Source: Mycoplasmataceae bacterium (GTDB lineage: Bacteria > Bacillota_I > Bacilli_A > Mycoplasmatales > Mycoplasmoidaceae). Taken from it: 64,000 bases of DNA. The first letter of the stretch is position 1; each line of letters opens with the position of its first letter. Location of the stretch: assembly GCA_031288285.1 (NCBI GenBank), contig JAITRQ010000005.1, positions 1 through 64,000 on the forward strand. Reading direction: 5' to 3'. Below, in pieces: positions 13,901 to 50,017 of this stretch. The notes beneath the pieces are model-generated. The model was not told where the DNA came from. It made no database searches and was given only the letters and a program-made list of their open reading frames with translations. The translations under genes and the position numbers were made by a program.

Positions 13901-14681
13901 CACAACTGCTGGCATGGGTTTTGTAGGGTTAATCAATACTAATAATACTAATGGTGTGGATAGCAAAATTACTGACGCTTTATTCAAAAATTACCCTGAT
14001 GCTAGTGCTGATAACAATTCAGGTAATGTTGGTGGCTTATACCAATACACCCAGTATAATCCCGATTGAACAGTCGATGTCGCTGGTACACGTATAAATA
14101 TTTTAAGCAACATTAACAATAACTTGACTACTCCTGCTGCGATTAATAATTTTGCGAAAAATATTAGTGCGCAAGTCCGTAGTGCTGATTTTGACAAAAT
14201 CTATCAAGCAATTCAAAGTCATGATTCGTTAAGCGATAAAAAGAAATATTTAAATTTTGCTTTCCAACAAGATCCTGACAATCAATACCCAATGTTAGAT
14301 GCATCATATTATCAAGGCATTAATGGTGGTAATGCGAATAACAAACTTTTCCGCGTTAAAGACGGTAATGATTACATGTTTAAGCCCGATTCTACAGTAC
14401 CAACCGGTGTAAAAGCCGTAGCAGTAGCGATCAATTTGGGTGATTTGGGTGGTGAAGATAGTCGCAATATTGATTATGCCAGTGTATCTACTCATTTACA
14501 AACCGTTTTTGGTAAAGAAGTATTCTATAACTTACTAGTGCAAGCCGCTATGGATAGTATGCGTCAATCCGAAGCTACTCGTGCCGCAATTAAAGCTATT
14601 GGCAAGATCAATGTGTACGACCGTCGTTGAAATGATTTGCTAGGTCAAATTTGAGTTGATAATTACAAAGACAAAAATTAA
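10902..14681 (+). CDS. very large putative lipoprotein
   Basis: 1259 residues in one frame, with many TGA (Trp) codons. The N-terminus MKIRNKFLLSIATVAVIC and the lipobox LTSC-S (Cys about residue 27) mark a lipoprotein anchored on the outer face of the membrane. The rest is Asn-, Ser- and Thr-rich, mostly hydrophilic, with no repeats obvious by eye and no second membrane segment. An early segment (EAAWKLDQMYAKIRNEFL) recalls other large mollicute lipoproteins, but I do not recognise a defined domain. The ATG is preceded by no good ribosome site. It is convergent with coaX, overlapping it by 4 bp. Function is unknown; it is probably a surface or secreted-side protein. Confidence 0.85.
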
Positions 14682-18929: not shown

Positions 18930-18969
18930 GACAATCTTTTTTTTTTTTTTTTGTTTATGGAAATATAAT
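18928..18969 (+). promoter_or_regulatory. candidate phase-variable promoter with T16 tract
   Basis: A perfect TTGACA (18928-18933) and a perfect TATAAT (18964-18969) are separated by 30 bp that contain an uninterrupted run of 16 T (18937-18952). A normal spacer is 16-18 bp, so as written the promoter should be poorly active. Slippage in the tract would change the spacing. The arrangement resembles the homopolymer in the -35/-10 spacer of the vlp genes of Mycoplasma hyorhinis (established precedent). Operation here is inferred. Confidence 0.6.
18937..18952 (+). repeat. T16 homopolymer tract
   Basis: Sixteen consecutive T lie in the promoter region of the LRR surface gene at 18985. On the sense strand it is the same length as the tract upstream of the LRR lipoprotein at 25583. 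Confidence 0.95.
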
Positions 18970-18984
18970 CATGATTACAATACA

Positions 18985-20463
18985 ATGGTAACCAAAAAGC
19001 ATTGATTGCATTGAACTACTATCAGTTTTGTAGCCATCGTTGCTACAATGTGTATGGGTATTACTTTATCTACTCATACTAATTCTTTTATTACTTTAAA
19101 ATCACCAAATCGCAATGCCATAAATGATGATTTCACTATTGACGATGCAGCATTTTTGACTAGTTGTGGATTAGATCCTGCCGATGGTAAAAGCAATCTT
19201 AAAGCAACAATTACCAAAGAGGTATCGTGGGATAAAAAAAATAACCAAATTTATGGTGAAGTATCATTAGCGGCTGAACAACCAGATTCAATCTCTACCA
19301 TCACTTCTTCTACAAGTGACCCGTTTTACCAAGAAGGATTTAACATCCCCACAGTTGTAAGGCAAAAGATCACCACAAATGGTCAAAGTACTTTTTATAA
19401 CTATAACGTTACCACATTAACTGATAATGCATTTAAATCTGCTATCCACTTAGGGGGTGATTTAACCATTTCTAATTCAATAACAAGCGTAGGTACAAAT
19501 GCATTTGATGGCTGTTCGGGTCTTAAAAAATTAGTAATTAATGCAAACATGGATAATTGAGTGAACACATTCGTTGGATGCAGTGCACTCAACACAATCA
19601 CTATTAACGGAAATATGAATAAATGCGAGAATTGCTTCCCTGAATATCCAGATTCTGTCTCTCAATTAGAAATTAATCGTAATATTGGCAAAGATAATAT
19701 CGATTGTTTCGGTGCCATTTGAAACACCATTATTATCGGCGAAACAGTAACTAATATTGCTGTACCAATTTGTCTTAATCTATCAAATGCAACTAACATT
19801 TTATTTTGTGGTCCGTTGCCAATCATGCCCGCAACTGTATTTAATACCCAAGATATTTCTAAATATAATGCTATTTGAATAAATAAAACTTTTCAGCAGG
19901 CGTATCAAACATTTTTCCCCAATTTTCATACCGTTGATAAATTGTTAGTTAATGGCTATTTTATTGGTCCAAAAACTTTCCCCAAAACTTACCAATATGA
20001 TTATTACAATAATAATCAACCATACAATGCGGTACCTGATAGAGCTTTTGACACCTTAATGCAAAGCACTATCCCTACACCCATATCTCCGGCACACATT
20101 ATTTCATCGTCATTAACATATCGCTTAGTAAATGCACCAAGTTGAGTCTATATTCAAATGATAAATAGTTATCCCGTAATTTATTGAAATAACGCTACCA
20201 CTAGTGGTAAATTTACAATTTATATGACCCAATGTTATCAATACATTATTGAATCTGAAAATCAGCGAAAAACCTATTACACCGATACATACCACTTATC
20301 TTATCCAATCTATTTTGAAATCTTGCCTATTTATACTACCCAAACCATATACGATACTATGGGAGTATTTGCTTTAGTAATGGTTACTATCCTAACCGGT
20401 TGTTTAATTGCCAATGCAGCAATTAAAAAATATAGTAAACCTAAGAAAAGGAAAAAATCATAA
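18985..20463 (+). CDS. LRR (BspA-like) membrane-anchored surface protein
   Basis: 492 residues. The N-terminal signal (MVTKKHWLHW, then a hydrophobic span) has no lipobox. LRR_5-type units follow from about residue 130: TLTDNAFKSAIHLGG, SVGTNAFDGCSGLKKLVIN, FVGCSALNTITI. The protein ends with a membrane span (about 460-480) and a basic tail KKYSKPKKRKKS, so it should sit outside the cell, anchored at its C-terminus. TGA is Trp. The start ATG (18985) is the first in frame after the TATAAT. The T16 promoter tract upstream suggests on/off variation. The stop overlaps the next start (TAATG), coupling it to the membrane protein at 20463. Confidence 0.85.
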
Positions 20464-21255: not shown

Positions 21256-22422
21256 TTAATAATTAATTAATATTTGCGCAACTTTAGCCATGGCATTTGC
21301 AATCGCATCGTCCATATCAAAATAGCTGTATTCAGCTAATCGTCCCAGCAAATGTAAGTTTTTTATTTTTTTAATTTCGGTTAAATATTTATTGAATATT
21401 AAATCCGTTTCAAAAGACTTGACCGAATAAAAACGGTGACTTGGTGTGCTTGCATCAGGATTGTATGCACGGGGATATTCTTTAGAAACCGTTGTAACAT
21501 TACGAATATCGTGTTGTAAAGATAATTTTTTATATTCAGTAATTCTAGTCATACTAGGGTCGGCAGGATAATTAATAACTCCGACTTCTTGATAAGCATC
21601 AACATTGTGTGTTTCTAAAACTATATCTAAACTACGATACAGTAAATAACCGTATTTATTTTCAAGCAATTCATCAACCGAACCACAATAAAATATAGTC
21701 TTTTTACACTCTGTATCATTTAAATAAGTACGATTATTTTTAATTTTTAATATATCGGGTCCATTAACGCCGTAATTTACTTTGATATTTTTGTGTTTTA
21801 ACATGTTGCGAATCATTTGGGTGTAACCACCAATTGGTACGCCTTGATATTTATCCCGCGGAAAAAAATTATTAGATTTATCTAAATGAATCATAATGCG
21901 GTCTAAGACGCTATGATCGATTTTATCCATACTTTGACCCCACATTTTAGTAGAGTAATTAACATAGATATTGTCGTACACATACTGTCCAAATGTTTGC
22001 ACGCCGGGATGTGTTGCGTTTATCAAATCATAAATTGAAATAAATTTCTTATTTTTAGCTAATTTAATAATTTGTTTAATGATTAATGAAGCATTTTTAC
22101 CCGCAAGTGCTGCGATAGATGCAAGATTTAATGGTAAAACAATTTTTTGCTTTTCTACCACCGCTAATACTTGATGTTTGTATGTATTGAATTTAGTGAA
22201 TTTACTAATAAAATCATAGACTTGTTTGTTTTGAGTGTGAAAAACATGTGGTCCATATTTGTGAATCATAATCCCATGTTCGTTAAGATAATCATAACAA
22301 TTACCACCAGGATGAGTTCGTTGTTCGTAGATGGTAACTTTGTGCCCTTGTTCTGCTAATAGCCTAGCAGCAGTTGCCCCCGAAAGTCCTGCACCGAAAA
22401 TAATTACATCTAACTTCGCCAT
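21256..22422 (-). CDS. glf: UDP-galactopyranose mutase
   Basis: 388 residues. This flavoenzyme converts UDP-galactopyranose to UDP-galactofuranose, the donor for galactofuranosyl glycans or glycolipids. The FAD site GAGLSGATAAR is at 10-20, then YEQRTHPGGNCYD, IHKYGPHVFHT and the later NYPADPSMTRITEYK and GRLAEYSYFDMDDAI, all diagnostic of Glf. The glycosyltransferases in this window (3564, 37909, 48848) are possible users of the product. A Galf-containing surface glycan is inferred. Confidence 0.97.
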   Translation of the reverse strand: MAKLDVIIFGAGLSGATAARLLAEQGHKVTIYEQRTHPGGNCYDYLNEHGIMIHKYGPHVFHTQNKQVYDFISKFTKFNTYKHQVLAVVEKQKIVLPLNLASIAALAGKNASLIIKQIIKLAKNKKFISIYDLINATHPGVQTFGQYVYDNIYVNYSTKMWGQSMDKIDHSVLDRIMIHLDKSNNFFPRDKYQGVPIGGYTQMIRNMLKHKNIKVNYGVNGPDILKIKNNRTYLNDTECKKTIFYCGSVDELLENKYGYLLYRSLDIVLETHNVDAYQEVGVINYPADPSMTRITEYKKLSLQHDIRNVTTVSKEYPRAYNPDASTPSHRFYSVKSFETDLIFNKYLTEIKKIKNLHLLGRLAEYSYFDMDDAIANAMAKVAQILINY

Positions 22423-22609: not shown

Positions 22610-22795
22610 ATGTCAACATCTAAAAAATTACACAGCATATGAGTAGAAGAGGAAAAATGAAAAATAATGAAAAAAGTTGCTGATGTCACGGAATTACCAA
22701 TGAGTCGAATGATTCGTGAAATGTTTAGACTTTATTACAAAAAATTTTTGAAATATAAACAATTAGATCCAAAACTTACGATTGGGGATTTATAA
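22610..22795 (+). CDS. small putative DNA-binding protein next to the methyltransferase
   Basis: 61 residues, starting MSTSKKLHSIWVEEEKWKIM with TGA as Trp at two positions. The pattern of a short N-terminal strand followed by VADVTELPMSRMIREMF resembles a ribbon-helix-helix or short helix-turn-helix regulator. The similarity is by eye only. It ends 1 bp before the methyltransferase ATG, in the position typical for a control gene of a restriction-modification operon. Confidence 0.5.
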
Positions 22796-22796
22796 T

Positions 22797-23804
22797 ATGA
22801 ATGAAAATATGAATTCTAAGAAAAAAGAACTTGGACAATTTTTTACTAAAAAAAACATTTGGTTAACGGACCCAGTACAAAAATTTATTAAAAGCAACTT
22901 TAGAGGCATTATTTTGGATCCATTTGCTGGCGCGGGTGATATTCTTCAAGCCGTTTTTATTATGTTAAAATCCAAAGTAAAATTAGTGGGCTTTGATATT
23001 GATAAGAATTTAAAATGGAAATTTAACGACAGCTTAAACTGTATACCAATTATAAAGAATGGTTTTATCGTAACTAATCCACCATATTTATCAAAAAATA
23101 GTTGTAAGCGTAATAAATTTAATCAAACTTATAACAAATATTTTATGCAATGTAAACACGAAGATTTGTATATGATAGCCTTAGAAAAAATGATTCAAAC
23201 AGGCCTTCCCGGCATAGCTGTTGTGCCAGAAACATTTATTAACTCATCGTTCCCAAAACACAAAATAAATTTAGTAGTCATTATTGAACCGAACCCTTTT
23301 GATGATACTGAGGTGCCAATATGTGTAGTGTGCTTTAATGAAAAAAAGATTCAATCATTTAGTGATGATTATTTAATTTATAAAAATTATGATTTAATTG
23401 GTAAATATTCAGAATTATTTAAATCAGTCCCCAACCCAAATAAAATTTTAAAAGATATAAGATTCAACGATAAATTCGGCAATATTGCGATTCGTGGTAT
23501 TGATTCTACAAATCCAGAGCATAAAATTAAGTTTTGTTTGGTTGGAGAAATAAATTATGATCTTAATAAAATATCTAGTTCTTCTCGCTCTATTACAGTT
23601 GTTTCTACAAAAATAGAGTACAAAAATTCTCAATTAATTAGACTTATTAATAATTGCAATTTGATATTAAATAAATTTAGGTCTAAAACCAAAGATGTAT
23701 TATTGTCTCCTTTTAAAGGTAATAATAAAAACGGGGTTAGGAGAAGACGTTTAGATTATTTTATTGCTAGGCAAATAATTTCTAAAGCTATAGAAACTAT
23801 TTAA
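22797..23804 (+). CDS. type II DNA adenine-N6 methyltransferase
   Basis: 335 residues. Visible motifs are ELGQFFTKK at the N-terminus, motif I DPFAGAGDIL (S-adenosylmethionine binding, about residues 42-51) and motif IV IVTNPPYL (about 96-103). This is the order of gamma-class adenine methylases. The target recognition region follows; the specificity cannot be read. The ATG at 22797 is chosen because it sits 1 bp after the upstream small gene; an in-frame TTG at 22782 is possible. It is convergent with, and overlaps by 8 bp, the presumed endonuclease gene, so this looks like a complete type II system. Confidence 0.88.
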   Translation: MNENMNSKKKELGQFFTKKNIWLTDPVQKFIKSNFRGIILDPFAGAGDILQAVFIMLKSKVKLVGFDIDKNLKWKFNDSLNCIPIIKNGFIVTNPPYLSKNSCKRNKFNQTYNKYFMQCKHEDLYMIALEKMIQTGLPGIAVVPETFINSSFPKHKINLVVIIEPNPFDDTEVPICVVCFNEKKIQSFSDDYLIYKNYDLIGKYSELFKSVPNPNKILKDIRFNDKFGNIAIRGIDSTNPEHKIKFCLVGEINYDLNKISSSSRSITVVSTKIEYKNSQLIRLINNCNLILNKFRSKTKDVLLSPFKGNNKNGVRRRRLDYFIARQIISKAIETI

Positions 23805-24444
23805 TCTTAGGAAATGTAGATTCAAGAAATTCTTTGAGATTTTCTGTTGAAACCGCTCTACACCTTGAACCAACAAATTCGATATTCATAATTTCTAGTT
23901 TATTTGCGTAATAATTACCATCAGCTATGGCTAAAAAATAAACTTTTTTATCAACTACTCTTCTAGTAGATGTTAAAAAATTACACAAATCATTATAGGA
24001 ATTATCTTGAGCACCACCAGAATCTTTTGTGTATTTATGAGAACAATAAAAGTGAATACCACAATAAATAAATTCAAAATCTATGGATTTATTAGATTTC
24101 ACTCCGTTCCCAAAAGTGACGCGACCATCATTAGTTAGGATTTTGGCATTTTTACCAGATTTAGGTAAAATTTTAAATTCAGAAATACCTTCAATAGTAA
24201 TTATATAATCGCCAGCTATTTTTTCGTGAATGTTTTGTTTATTGGGGTCTTTCGCTAGAAATGCTGTCACTATTTTATCATTATCATTGATTCTATCTTT
24301 TATATCTTCCGCACATATTGAAGTTCTTTTACAAAATTCGTTAATTTTATTTGTTAGTCATTTGCTCAGTATCTCTTCCTTAACTTTCGAAATATTCTCT
24401 AGACGTTTTTGTTTGATTTTTTCTTCTCAATCTATTACCGGCAT
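23797..24444 (-). CDS. probable type II restriction endonuclease
   Basis: 215 residues with no close family recognised. Position opposite the methyltransferase, with stop codons overlapping, is the main evidence. The central segment SIDFEFIYCGIHFYCSHKYT, followed by KDSGGAQDNSYNDL, has the acidic/Lys and 'GGAQDN' character seen in several PD-(D/E)XK-fold restriction enzymes, but the catalytic residues cannot be assigned with certainty. The start ATG at 24442-24444 gives the longest frame, and TGA (for example in IDWEEK) encodes Trp. It probably cleaves the site protected by the neighbouring methylase. Confidence 0.65.
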
Positions 24445-24560: not shown

Positions 24561-24854
<294 letters not shown>

Positions 24855-24920: not shown

Positions 24921-25583
24921 TTAAACTAGTGGGATTATTCAAGTACTTGGTAACCCTTTGAATGTACCTATTGTGATTCCAAGACCAGGATTGGGAGGTA
25001 CGATAACCGCCCCCCCCAAACTGTTAAAACCAGAAAAAGCATCATTACCGATTGTTGGTATTGCAGTTCAAGTAGAAGCGTTAATAATATTAAAACCTAC
25101 ACACCCAGAAAATCCCATATAACCAATATTATCTACTGAACTAGGAATTGTTAGCATCCCGGTAAGTCCTGAGCAATCCTCGAATGCATATTGACCAATT
25201 GTATTTAAATTAATAGCAATAGTTAAATCGAGATTAGTAATGGTGTGGTAAGCATCACCATTGTTAAATGCGTCGCGAAATGCATTATTAGCAATTGATG
25301 TTACGTTGTATTGAGTATCACCATCCAAAAATACAGGTGGTATTCATAATGTATTGTAGGCATCTAAATCAAGATCGCTTTTCAATCCGGTGATAGTTAA
25401 TGAATTACCATTTTCATCTCAATCGAAATATTCCTTAGTAAACGGAATAGAACCTTCTGGTGGGGTTGGCCCTGGTGGGTTTGAATTCTTACTACAGCTA
25501 GTAGTTGAAATGAGCATTCCGACTCCAAAAATCCCCAAAATTACACTTGGAACAACACTCAATATTCATTTGTTTTTTTTCAT
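24921..25583 (-). CDS. small LRR lipoprotein
   Basis: 220 residues. A clear lipoprotein signal (MKKNKWILSVV, then a hydrophobic core, lipobox TTSC-S) is followed by a Pro-rich linker NPPGPTPPEGS. There are then a few LRR_5 units: SIANNAFRD, TIGQYAFEDCSGLTGMLTIP, NIGYMGFSGC, TIGNDAFSGF. It is much shorter than usual for BspA-like proteins, and a remnant of an LRR C-terminus lies just downstream. A G8 run (C8 at 25010-25017) lies within the coding part near the 3' end; as written it is in frame. Upstream there is a T16 tract on the sense strand, next to a TATATT -10. A surface-exposed, possibly switchable protein is inferred. Confidence 0.82.
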
Positions 25584-25617: not shown

Positions 25618-25643
25618 AATATACCTCAAAAAAAAAAAAAAAA
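25618..25643 (-). promoter_or_regulatory. LRR lipoprotein promoter region with T16 tract
   Basis: On the minus strand a run of 16 T (A16 at 25628-25643) is followed by GAGG and TATATT (25618-25623), a plausible -10, about 35 bp before the ATG. The tract occupies the spacer and reaches the -35 position. No TTGACA-like -35 is obvious upstream. The layout is similar to the gene at 18985. Confidence 0.5.
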
Positions 25644-37908: not shown

Positions 37909-39627
37909 TTAGCAAACGCGGAAATACTCTGGGTGTGCTTGATAGAAAGCATCTTTAATTTTCGACGATTGAACATAAGCGTTTTTATAATGAATAAATT
38001 GGGATGGATCATATTTATTAAATTTTATAAATGACAATAAATATAAAATAATGGTGGCAAGCGCCGATAATACAAATATTCCTAGGTATGTGTTTAGTAT
38101 TATAAAAATCAATAATAAATTTGACATATTTCATAAAAAAGTGATTCATGGAACATCAATAGCGGCAAGGACACCAGCCAACACAATAAATACTATTAAA
38201 TCTCATTTAATCTTATTAAAAGCAGATCAAAATTTAACCTTTACCAGACGTTTGTTTGTGACATTAAAAACTGGCTGTTTTTTTAAAACAATAACTTTTC
38301 ATCAAGAGCGAAGAAAGTAGTTGATGAGCGAAAACACATATAGCGCCATAAAGAATGGGAAAAACAAGAATGATGAACCATTAATTTTACCATAATCAAA
38401 TCCTGCAAAGATTCCTAACAAAACAGCAGTGCAACCGCACACAATAACGGTGGTTAGAAAAAATCAGTCTGCAAAAATTACTTGTGCATCAATGCAAACG
38501 AATCAAACAAGAACACTAATTATCAATGTACCTGCGAATCCTAGAAAAGGACTGAATAATAATAAAATACTACGATTAAATCATTTTTCGTATTTTTCAT
38601 TATATTTTTCAAAAGTATTATGCTTTCTTAAAAATAATACTGATTCGGTAATGCGCGAAATGCGTGAAAAATGAGTTTTTATATTGGCGTCGTATTGCTG
38701 CGTGCACACGGTTAATGGGGAAATAATTCCTGTTCAGCCGTGCAATGCTGCGGTGTTCTCGGTATAATAATCTTCAAGTACAGTATCAGGGAATTTATTA
38801 CCAATATACTTTAAAAAATTCCCAGAAATCAAAGAAGAAGCACTATATAAATTAGAATAGTCTTTATGTAACACCGATTTCATTGAATCGCGCAAGAACA
38901 TGGTATTATTATCTAAACAGCGGCAAACATTAGTATAGATATTACTCGTCTTGTAACATTGATTCATTGGGGTAACAAAAGCTAATCTTTCAAAACGGTT
39001 ACTATAAAAAAAGCGAATGTTACATTGTACGGTATTGATGTCAAAAGATTCATCAGCATCTGCAATTAATAAATAATCAAATTTAGCATTAGAATATTTT
39101 AAAAAATGATTTAGATTGTCAGATTTACTGATGCTGCTACGATGCATTTGGTGCAAATGAATAGAATGTTTTGTGGCAAAAGTTTTTATCTCATTGATAA
39201 TTTGTGGTTTGTCTGAGCCATCAGATATTCACACTTCATAATTACTATAAGTTTGTTGACAATTTTGTAGCAGTCTAGCGGGCATGAAATCGTTGTGTGT
39301 AGTGTACACATAAACTACTTTGGGTAATTTTTTTGGCATCACCGTAGTAGAGACTATTTCCAATAATTCGTTTACATATGATTTACGAATTTTACATCGT
39401 AAAAAAGTAAAAAAAATAATATTCACAGCAATTAAACCGATCGAAATATATAAGTTGATAGATATATTTCCCAATGTACTATCACCGGGTAGTGTTAATG
39501 TATGTAACCCTATATTTAAAAATGTAAATAACGAAAAAATAGATAACAATCCACCCAATACGATATTGGCGCTTTTTCATATAAAAATAATTTTAGCGCG
39601 GAGATCTTTAGTGCGAGAATAAAACAT
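37909..39627 (-). CDS. GT2 family membrane glycosyltransferase
   Basis: 572 residues. Two N-terminal membrane spans (about 20-45 and 55-80) precede a GT-A catalytic domain that starts KVVYVYTTHNDF and has LLIADADESFD (the DxD motif, about 180). LEDYYTE is the later acceptor-side acidic motif. Four to six C-terminal spans follow. This is the layout of cellulose-synthase-like processive enzymes and related glycan or glycolipid synthases. The sugar and acceptor are not determinable. The Q-x-x-RW motif of true processive synthases is not evident (SRISR instead). Neighbouring phosphatase, nucleotidyltransferase and kinase genes suggest a glycan-building locus. Confidence 0.85.
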
Positions 39628-46999: not shown

Positions 47000-48089
47000 T
47001 TATTGGATTTTGTTAGTTAGAACTAATGCAGTTCTGCTAAATTTGTTAATGACATATTGAAGTAGTAGGCTAACAATGATGGAAAATAGAATAGTCAAAA
47101 TTAGTACTGTCATGCAAAAAGCCACACTATAGTTCATATGAATATTTTGGTAGAGAACGATACTCACCGTTTTGTGCAATAAATATACACCCAAAGATAT
47201 TTTGCCCGATCAAGAAAATATGAATAATAATATTTTGCTCTTGGGTCTAATAAAATAGAAAATAACAAATAAACCACAGCAAAAGGCTAATGCTGACAAC
47301 GAGGATGACTCTCCATAGAAACTTATAAAATTATTGTTATATCATGTACTTCATGACTGGTTATATCCTAGACTTCAAGATCCTTTATAGAAAACACAAT
47401 AAAATAAAATGACAATACTAATTGCTAATACTGAACCACATAAAAAAATTCTATTTTTTAATGGACTATTAGTATTAGTAAGTAAATGAAGTCGAATAAA
47501 TGCACCAATCATATACATGATTGATAAGAAAAATATAGATTTTCAAATATCAAAATTCATGAAATTTACTTCTTCACCAATATAACGATTGATAGCCCAT
47601 AACATAAAGATTAAAATTAATAAGTATCATCATTTTAAAACCTTACATAATTTATTAATAGCGCTAGATAGACAAACCACAAAGAAATAACTAACAACAA
47701 ATCACCAATGCTGCATAACTGGGTTTTGGGAATTAGAAAATTCTAAATATTGGTACCAATTATCTCCATTAAGTTTGTAACCAAAACAACAATATGCTAA
47801 AAATATTGCAAATAATCACCAAACAAAAAGTGTATTAAATGATGAGAAAATTCTTTTACCTAAGTGCGAAGAAGAATTTACAATGAAAAATCCCGAAATG
47901 ATCATAAATCCGGCCACAGCGTAAGTATGGCAGAATATGTCCATTCAATGCTGCTGATCCCCCCCCCCAGGCAGCATCGCCGGCACAATGATTCAATAAA
48001 ATTGAAATAGCAAAAAATAAACGCAATAATTCCAAACCAATATATTGATACCGTTTTTTATCGATTACTTGAAATTTATGTGTTAACAT
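47000..48089 (-). CDS. acyltransferase-3 family membrane protein, out of frame at a G10 tract
   Basis: The N-terminal frame (MLTHKFQVIDKKRYQYIGLE, LLRLFFAISILLNH) reads into ten G (C10 at 47959-47968). The rest of the protein is found one base out of register: HWMDIFCHTYAVAGFMIISG, then about nine membrane spans to SGKISLGVYLLHKTV and a TAA at 47000-47002. Removing one G (or adding two) would join both parts into about 362 residues typical of O-acyltransferases that acylate surface sugars or lipids. The written sequence is therefore an off state, or a base-call error in the tract. TGA is Trp throughout. Confidence 0.8.
47959..47968 (+). repeat. C10 (G10 on coding strand) homopolymer inside the acyltransferase gene
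   Basis: Ten consecutive C occur in an otherwise very AT-rich region, exactly where the reading frame breaks. This is a strong slippage hotspot. Confidence 0.95.
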
Positions 48090-48778: not shown

Positions 48779-48847
48779 GCTTTAAAAAAGCAAAAATACA
48801 GAAGGCTTTGTAATGAATGTTTTAATTTTTTATAAGATAATTCATTG

Positions 48848-50017
48848 GTGCGAATTTTATTGATAGGTAATTTACCTTATACACGAATTGGTGGTATTGA
48901 AAAATATCATTTTAATGTCATTAAATTATTACTCAAAAATTATCCACAAGCACAAATCGATGAATACAGCATTTGTGCTGCTTTAGAATATGATCAACTG
49001 CCGCCCATTCGCCCCGCAATACCGAATGTGAACATTATCTTGAATTCTTGCTATCAGAATAATAACTACTCACATAAATTTAATATCAAACAATATTTCA
49101 AACGTATTAGACACGGTTGTGAACAAATCACAAAACTCATGGCGCAAAATCAATATGACCTTTGTGTTTGTTCGGTATTTCATCTTGCTAAAAAAATCAA
49201 ATTTAATTTAAATAAAACAATTTTTATTCAGCACATGGATGTGTCATTTTATGACAATAGCTGTTTTACAAACGATAAATGAGCTAAACTCACATTGTGG
49301 TGAATTAAATATTTTCATAAATGTATACCAGCATTAGCAATCGCTAATGTTAGAAAAATCATTTGTTACACCAAATATGACAAGATCAAGATAAAACAAA
49401 AGTTTAAATCAACGACTCATGCTCAATTTTTCAATGTTCCTTTGGGATATGAAACTCATTTGTCAGTCCCATCACGTAATAAACCGGCCATTATTGCTTA
49501 TTGTGGTCGCATTGATAATCAACAAAAAAATATTAGTTTTTTAATTAAACTAATGAAATATTTGCATAAATTAACACCGTATCAATTGGTGTTGTGGGGT
49601 GGTGGAGAAATGGTTAAAGATTTATCTAATAAACCCAATATTGTATATCGCGGTACATATTCATCCGATACAGATTTACGAAATATTTATCAAGATGTCA
49701 AATTTGCAATCAACACTTCACGGACTGAAGGTTTTTCATATTCGTTGTTAGAAGCGATGTCACTAGGTGTACCAATCATTGTTAGAGATACATATAGCAA
49801 TGCACGATTCTTAGTGAATGGTAAAAAGAACGGTATTATTATTCCTAAAAAAATGAAGCCTCAAATTGCTGCAGCACACATTGCTTCTTTGATAAATAAA
49901 ATAGATTATGAACGGATGCAGAAAAATTGTTTATCCTTCGTGAAGAACAAATGTAATATAAAGTTGGTTAATCAAAAACTTTTAACAGCTTTTTCGTCCG
50001 TTTTAGATCATAAATAA
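48848..50017 (+). CDS. GT4-family glycosyltransferase
   Basis: 389 residues from a GTG; an in-frame TTG one codon earlier is equally possible, and there is no ATG in frame after the upstream stop. MRILLIGNLPYTRIGGIEKY is the N-terminal glycine-rich start of GT-B enzymes. IIAYCGRIDNQQKNI and SRTEGFSYSLLEAMSLGVP (EX7E site) form the donor domain. It is likely a sugar transferase to a lipid or glycan; the donor is unknown (UDP-Galf from glf is one possibility). It contains several TGA Trp codons and stands alone after the tRNA terminator. Confidence 0.82.

Follow-up and report, generated by a model that had tools for sequence, protein, structure and literature searches.

Does the interruption of a putative membrane acyltransferase gene at a run of ten guanines mark a gene that is switched on and off, a gene in decay, or an error of assembly? 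The gene lies in the window (the whole stretch of 64,000 nucleotides analysed) and runs on the minus strand from an ATG at 48089 to a stop at 47000, with the following parts:

47970 to 48089, minus strand: N-terminal acyltransferase-3 piece of 40 codons, opening with the ATG at 48089 and closing with the last full codon ahead of the tract; both R-X10-H and the first membrane helix lie here.
47959 to 47968, minus strand: G10 tract (C10 on the plus strand), the proposed slippage switch and site of the frame break.
47000 to 47956, minus strand: downstream acyltransferase-3 piece, 318 codons plus stop, in a frame different from that of the N-terminal piece; matches PF01757 (3.3e-19).
47856 to 48089, minus strand: OFF product, 77 residues, as translated from the ATG of the assembled sequence.

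The order along the gene is 40 codons, a single T, ten G (47968-47959) and then 318 codons. Both flanks are open in two different frames, bearing out the claim of a preliminary description that the acyltransferase-3 (AT3) coding frame breaks exactly at the G10 tract, and the tract-length arithmetic from these coordinates agrees with its proposal that nine or twelve G would give a protein of 362 residues. Further disabling mutations, named there as grounds for rejecting a switch, were not found: the 358 codons contain no second lesion and the key motifs are kept. The gene is otherwise intact and its frame is set by tract length alone, as in a contingency gene.

The downstream frame is open only when TGA is read as tryptophan, with 11 stops (including the final one) under translation table 11 and the final stop alone under table 4. 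TGA is used in this way across 18 window genes, where it occurs 52 times against 20 for TGG, and GGG accounts for 9% of their glycine codons. The host is a gut mycoplasma relative, with UvrA 79% identical to that of a 'Mycoplasmataceae bacterium' MAG and 71% identical to that of 'uncultured Ureaplasma sp. RUG14531'. Its assembly, apparently metagenome-derived, comprises 534 kb in 17 contigs at 51% completeness and contains 32 LRR_5 domain matches.

Membership of the AT3 family is supported by both pieces. The downstream piece alone matches PF01757 (Acyl_transf_3) with 69.6 bits against a cut-off of 31, covering profile positions 40-318 of 326. An R/K-X10-H motif in the first helix is given as a family criterion in PMC9558356, and R-X10-H is present in the 40-residue N-terminal piece, before the tract. 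The R/K-X10-H pattern also matches 12 of the 13 genus-mate rows that cover this region; the thirteenth (L024) has the motif by alignment, where it falls beyond the position limit of the pattern. Of the motif V-x-x-F-F-x-(I/V/L)-S-G-(F/W/Y), the downstream piece retains every position except the second F, as VAGFMIISGF. A hydropathy scan places one helix in the N-terminal piece and eight in the C-terminal piece, compared with about ten transmembrane helices in the AT3 family. The RxxR motif of the first cytoplasmic loop, which marks the OacA-like subtype of O-antigen acetyltransferases and is essential in OacA, was absent from the window pieces and from the first 130 residues of the genus-mates; the gene is therefore assigned to PF01757 only, and the OacA-like subtype is not claimed.

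AT3 proteins carry acyl groups across the membrane onto sugars, according to the same source (PMC9558356). The window encodes GT4 enzymes besides a GT2 protein, and three of its genes bear on a possible acceptor:

21256 to 22422, minus strand: UDP-galactopyranose mutase (TIGR00031, 3.4e-114, above cut-off).
37909 to 39627, minus strand: GT2-domain glycosyltransferase of 572 residues (PF00535, 3.3e-6), multi-helix and synthase-like by eye.
48845 to 50017, plus strand: GT4 glycosyltransferase adjoining the acyltransferase, past tRNA genes (PF00534, 7.9e-22).

The presence of the mutase suggests a capacity for galactofuranose polymer or glycolipid synthesis, which would supply a candidate acyl acceptor, and the combination with GT2 and GT4 enzymes in the window makes such a polymer or glycolipid a plausible substrate. 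Family membership together with these nearby polysaccharide or glycolipid genes suggests that the acyltransferase is a surface-modifying enzyme. A search for its promoter gave nothing above chance: the region has 10 consensus sites, 10.1 being expected, and none was placed for the acyltransferase.

The tract itself is far longer than base composition would predict. G/C runs of length 5 occur 22 times in the window, and runs of lengths 6, 8 and 10 once each. Under Markov models of order 0-4, the expected number of runs of at least 10 per window is 0.0012-0.0052 (one observed) and of runs of at least 8 is 0.05-0.14 (two observed); in first-order simulations, a run of at least 10 arose in 1 of 100 and one of at least 8 in 6 of 100. 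Scaled to 534 kb, 0.01-0.04 runs of at least 10 would be expected. The whole assembly contains five distinct tracts of G8 or longer and a single run of at least nine G, the G10 of the acyltransferase, in agreement with the earlier remark that such a run is very unusual for this genome. The tract is thus a non-triplet repeat within the coding frame and longer than chance, as seen in contingency genes. A possible hairpin formed by ATGCTGC...GCAGCAT flanking the G10 was rejected: about 4% of randomly chosen positions have arms of at least 7, among 45 distinct tracts only 2 have arms of this length, and the fold does not surpass that of shuffled sequences (z -0.78).

All five tracts of G8 or longer in the host genome fall in genes of contingency type, namely the acyltransferase, HsdM and HsdS of a type I restriction-modification system and two LRR_5 (BspA-like) lipoproteins, and the four other than the acyltransferase are G8 and in frame. 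LRR lipoproteins, HsdM, HsdS and acyltransferases are textbook classes of contingency gene. In HsdS (L007, own genome C16:9686-9693), the G8 lies in frame between the two halves of the protein, and a slip there would alter or drop the second recognition domain. Long T tracts accompany surface protein genes as well, and the window includes:

25010 to 25017, minus strand: second window G8, in frame near the 3' end of the LRR_5 (BspA-like) lipoprotein gene at 24921-25583.
25628 to 25643, minus strand: T16 on the coding strand, 44 nt 5' of the ATG of the same lipoprotein gene (24921-25583) and immediately followed by a TATATTTAA-like box, as in tracts of the promoter-spacer type.
18937 to 18952, plus strand: T16; 32 nt further on lies an ATG of another LRR_5 surface protein gene, whose ORF ends at 20463.

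Tracts of T15-17 (L005, L228 and L229 among them) precede the start codons of several LRR or lipoprotein genes by 32-56 nt, with a TATATTTAA-like box adjoining in several, and they are probably promoter-spacer switches; the promoter-spacer switches of other mycoplasmas have the same tract placement. Repeats of (GT/CA)12-20 were also observed at 24815-24844 in the window and elsewhere in the same genome (C3:2616, C8:11229, C10:39141 and 39264, C14:623 and C16:39673), those on C3, C8, C10 and C14 lying about 37 nt from an A/T16-17 tract in a module-like arrangement. Separately, two overlapping ORFs on opposite strands at 22782-24444 in the window, one of them methyltransferase-like, resemble by eye a type II restriction-modification pair.

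Comparison across the genus extends this pattern to other AT3 genes. PF01757 matches numbered 17, in 13 of the 36 genus genomes (host genome included). A repeat was counted if it lay in the match or no more than 250 nt 5' of it and was a G/C run of at least 7, an A/T run of at least 12 or a dinucleotide repeat of at least 8 units. By this definition 7 of the 17 AT3 loci, the window gene included, bear a repeat, compared with none of the 26 FprA loci (Fisher p 0.0006) and none of the 5 UvrA loci; a stricter cut gives 5 of 17 against 0 of 26 for FprA (p 0.006). The seven loci are:

Window AT3: G10, out of frame.
G004 AT3: frame lost exactly at a G7, which occupies the same TM1-TM2 loop (helix 1 to the ISG/ITG motif).
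G024 AT3: G9 just before TM1, in frame.
G023 AT3: (AC)13 preceding helix 1, with the ATG in another frame.
G002 AT3: G9; the locus is a fragment abutting the end of a contig.
G021 AT3: (TG)10, about 200 nt upstream.
G010 AT3: short (AT)8 inside an open frame.

The positions of the repeats differ among loci, so that they look like repeated independent gains within one enzyme family. The remaining 10 loci carry no repeat, and in one of the genomes (G011) the AT3 frame is interrupted between the same pair of motifs with no G-run present, indicating that plain decay or assembly error occurs in this family too. No ortholog of the window gene was identified among the relatives searched; matches were obtained in 3 of 40 genomes, being the gene itself and two proteins at 28-30% identity. 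Nor is there an AT3 neighbour near FprA in six genus-mates (L194-L199, ORFs by eye), and the PF01757 search of the genus placed none there, suggesting that the window gene is a local gain or has been lost elsewhere. A search of viral_contigs by flank pattern, with tract length left free, returned 0 other copies.

A second gene family in the genus gives a closer view of how frame follows tract length. The SGGEF(F/Y)TP region of HsdM could be read in 12 of the 21 HsdM_N loci, and a G-run at the conserved SGGEF motif is present in five of these 12 copies (L212/L006 in the own genome, C16:8119-8126; L204, L206, L207 and L213). Two of them, in G000 and G009, are in frame, both with G8; the copies in G022 (G7), G020 (G9) and G011 (G8, with TCA replacing TCG ahead of it) are out of frame, and the break in G020 (L076) falls between the HsdM_N and N6_Mtase domains. 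All seven copies without a G-run are in frame. As read from these assemblies, the same codons bear the G-run across five species and the frame state tracks tract length, making HsdM a likely phase-variable type I methylase (phasevarion). A search for MutS by its MutS_V domain found none in the 36 genus genomes (control, 11 of 14), suggesting that slip errors in G-runs could persist uncorrected.

Taken together, the exact frame break, the intact flanks, the contingency tracts of the same genome, the genus comparison and the lack of a detectable MutS argue for the on/off phase variation put forward in the preliminary description, and we place the probability that the acyltransferase is a phase-variable (contingency) gene switched by slippage in its G10 at roughly 83%. 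During replication the G10 would slip and gain or lose one G, and without MutS the slip would go uncorrected, leaving a clone that holds cells of mixed tract lengths. An in-frame tract (ON) would give an integral-membrane AT3 enzyme of 362 residues; with the tract out of frame (OFF), translation would yield the 77-residue product that ends after the first helix, and OFF would be the majority state captured by the assembly. The ON enzyme is predicted to pass an acyl group, probably acetyl, from acyl-CoA over the membrane to a surface glycan or glycolipid, such that each population may be a mixture of acyl-modified and unmodified cells. We infer reversible tract-length change in living cells, the existence of ON cells and the surface-sugar target.

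The alternative that survives best, although unlikely, is a simple pseudogene, in which a one-base slip in a chance G-run inactivated the acyltransferase and the gene is now decaying. The OFF state is the only one seen, no ortholog shows conservation, and the G011 gene demonstrates a broken AT3 frame without a G-run; however, a decaying gene fits poorly with 358 codons free of a second lesion, with retained key motifs, with a G10 that is itself improbable by chance, and with repeats that recur in the AT3 genes of other species and in the host genome's other contingency genes. Less probable again is a homopolymer error of assembly or consensus, with the true majority tract in frame. Homopolymer length is a common indel error and the host sequence, with its 17 contigs and 51% completeness, is apparently metagenome-derived, but the tract is interior to an 83-kb contig, and A/T runs of up to 8 within other window genes leave long frames open. 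Even with such an error, an in-frame G tract of near this length would be a slippage-prone switch that happened to be ON. Programmed ribosomal frameshifting or transcriptional slippage, by which each cell would make some full-length protein from unchanged DNA, is the least probable. G-runs can be slippery for both ribosomes and polymerases, but the HsdM frame state across species tracks DNA tract length rather than a fixed slippery site, seven HsdM copies are ON without any G-run, and a stimulatory hairpin is not above chance.

The proposed switching of the acyltransferase has counterparts in other bacteria. Poly-G tracts control lot3/pglI in Neisseria, and in M. agalactiae the secretion of beta-(1-6)-glucan is reportedly poly(G)-controlled, in work attributed to Gaurivaud in 2016. 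Among AT3 enzymes, H. influenzae oafA is phase-variable, as is rhamnose acetylation by an OafB homologue in S. Typhi (PMC9558356); these share ON/OFF switching of an AT3 enzyme with the proposed behaviour of the window gene and acylate a surface sugar, but act on Gram-negative LPS/LOS, and the S. Typhi switch is epigenetic (PMC9558356). Within the mollicutes, CpG methyltransferases of M. agalactiae vary by a poly(G) within the coding frame that turns them ON or OFF by frameshift, and in one population the tract may be one or two G longer or shorter (PMC9465063). These belong to other enzyme families and to a cultured ruminant pathogen, unlike the gut MAG lineage described here. Capsular polysaccharides of cultured mycoplasmas are phase-variable as well (PMC11658790, PMC9051441). 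In Ca. Mycoplasma girerdii, metagenome reads reveal mixtures of repeat lengths in BspA-like, HsdS and methyltransferase genes, one of the switching methyltransferases being controlled by a G8, and the majority allele is often OFF (PMC5476646). Its strain UC-B3 resembles the host in being an uncultured mollicute with many BspA-like surface proteins, the same repeat-bearing gene classes and an assembled OFF state, but differs in having mainly dinucleotide repeats, two length-variable homopolymers only and, in the available text of that report, no acyltransferase among the affected genes (PMC5476646). The window acyltransferase, as a proposed switch, is a further case of a known type of slipped-strand switching, with read-level precedent in Ca. 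M. girerdii for BspA-like and restriction-modification genes. The open-licence papers searched yielded no account of a mollicute with a phase-variable AT3 acyltransferase; if real, the switch would mean that wall-less gut bacteria with tiny genomes turn the chemical decoration of surface sugars on and off in the manner of Gram-negative pathogens.

It is possible, although we rate the prospect at somewhat less than even, that a poly-G contingency code extends across the genus, with switches placed at obligatory Gly-Gly codons (as in HsdM SGGEF) or, in surface proteins and the enzymes that modify the surface, within signal peptides and early loops, where G slips would toggle the methylome, the lipoprotein coat and sugar acylation independently in each cell. 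Such a code would give a combinatorial surface to organisms whose DNA totals no more than about 1 Mb. Runs of at least nine G are present in 24 of the 36 genus genomes. In a sample, rather than a census, of the first such places per genome (L058-L087), tracts were located in or beside genes for LRR_5 proteins (L079, L082), glycosyltransferases (L066, L078), PAP2 proteins (L060, L080) and DNA methyltransferases (L076, L081), and, by eye, at lipoprotein-like N-termini (L063, L065, L074, L086, L087); many tract-bearing ORFs of the sample have no Pfam match.

Some individual loci of the genus survey differ in form. Runs of G19 and G21 are located at or near contig ends (G021:C16:71-89; the end of G046:C20, L077) and are possibly sequencing artefacts. 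L081 (G050:C1) encodes a D12-class adenine methyltransferase in which a nine-base G/C run separates the N-terminal motif from the body, and the two are read in different frames. In G042, poly-C/poly-G pairs about 30-90 nt apart occur in at least five places (e.g., C16:14422-14433 with 14473-14481), resembling hairpins or invertible elements.
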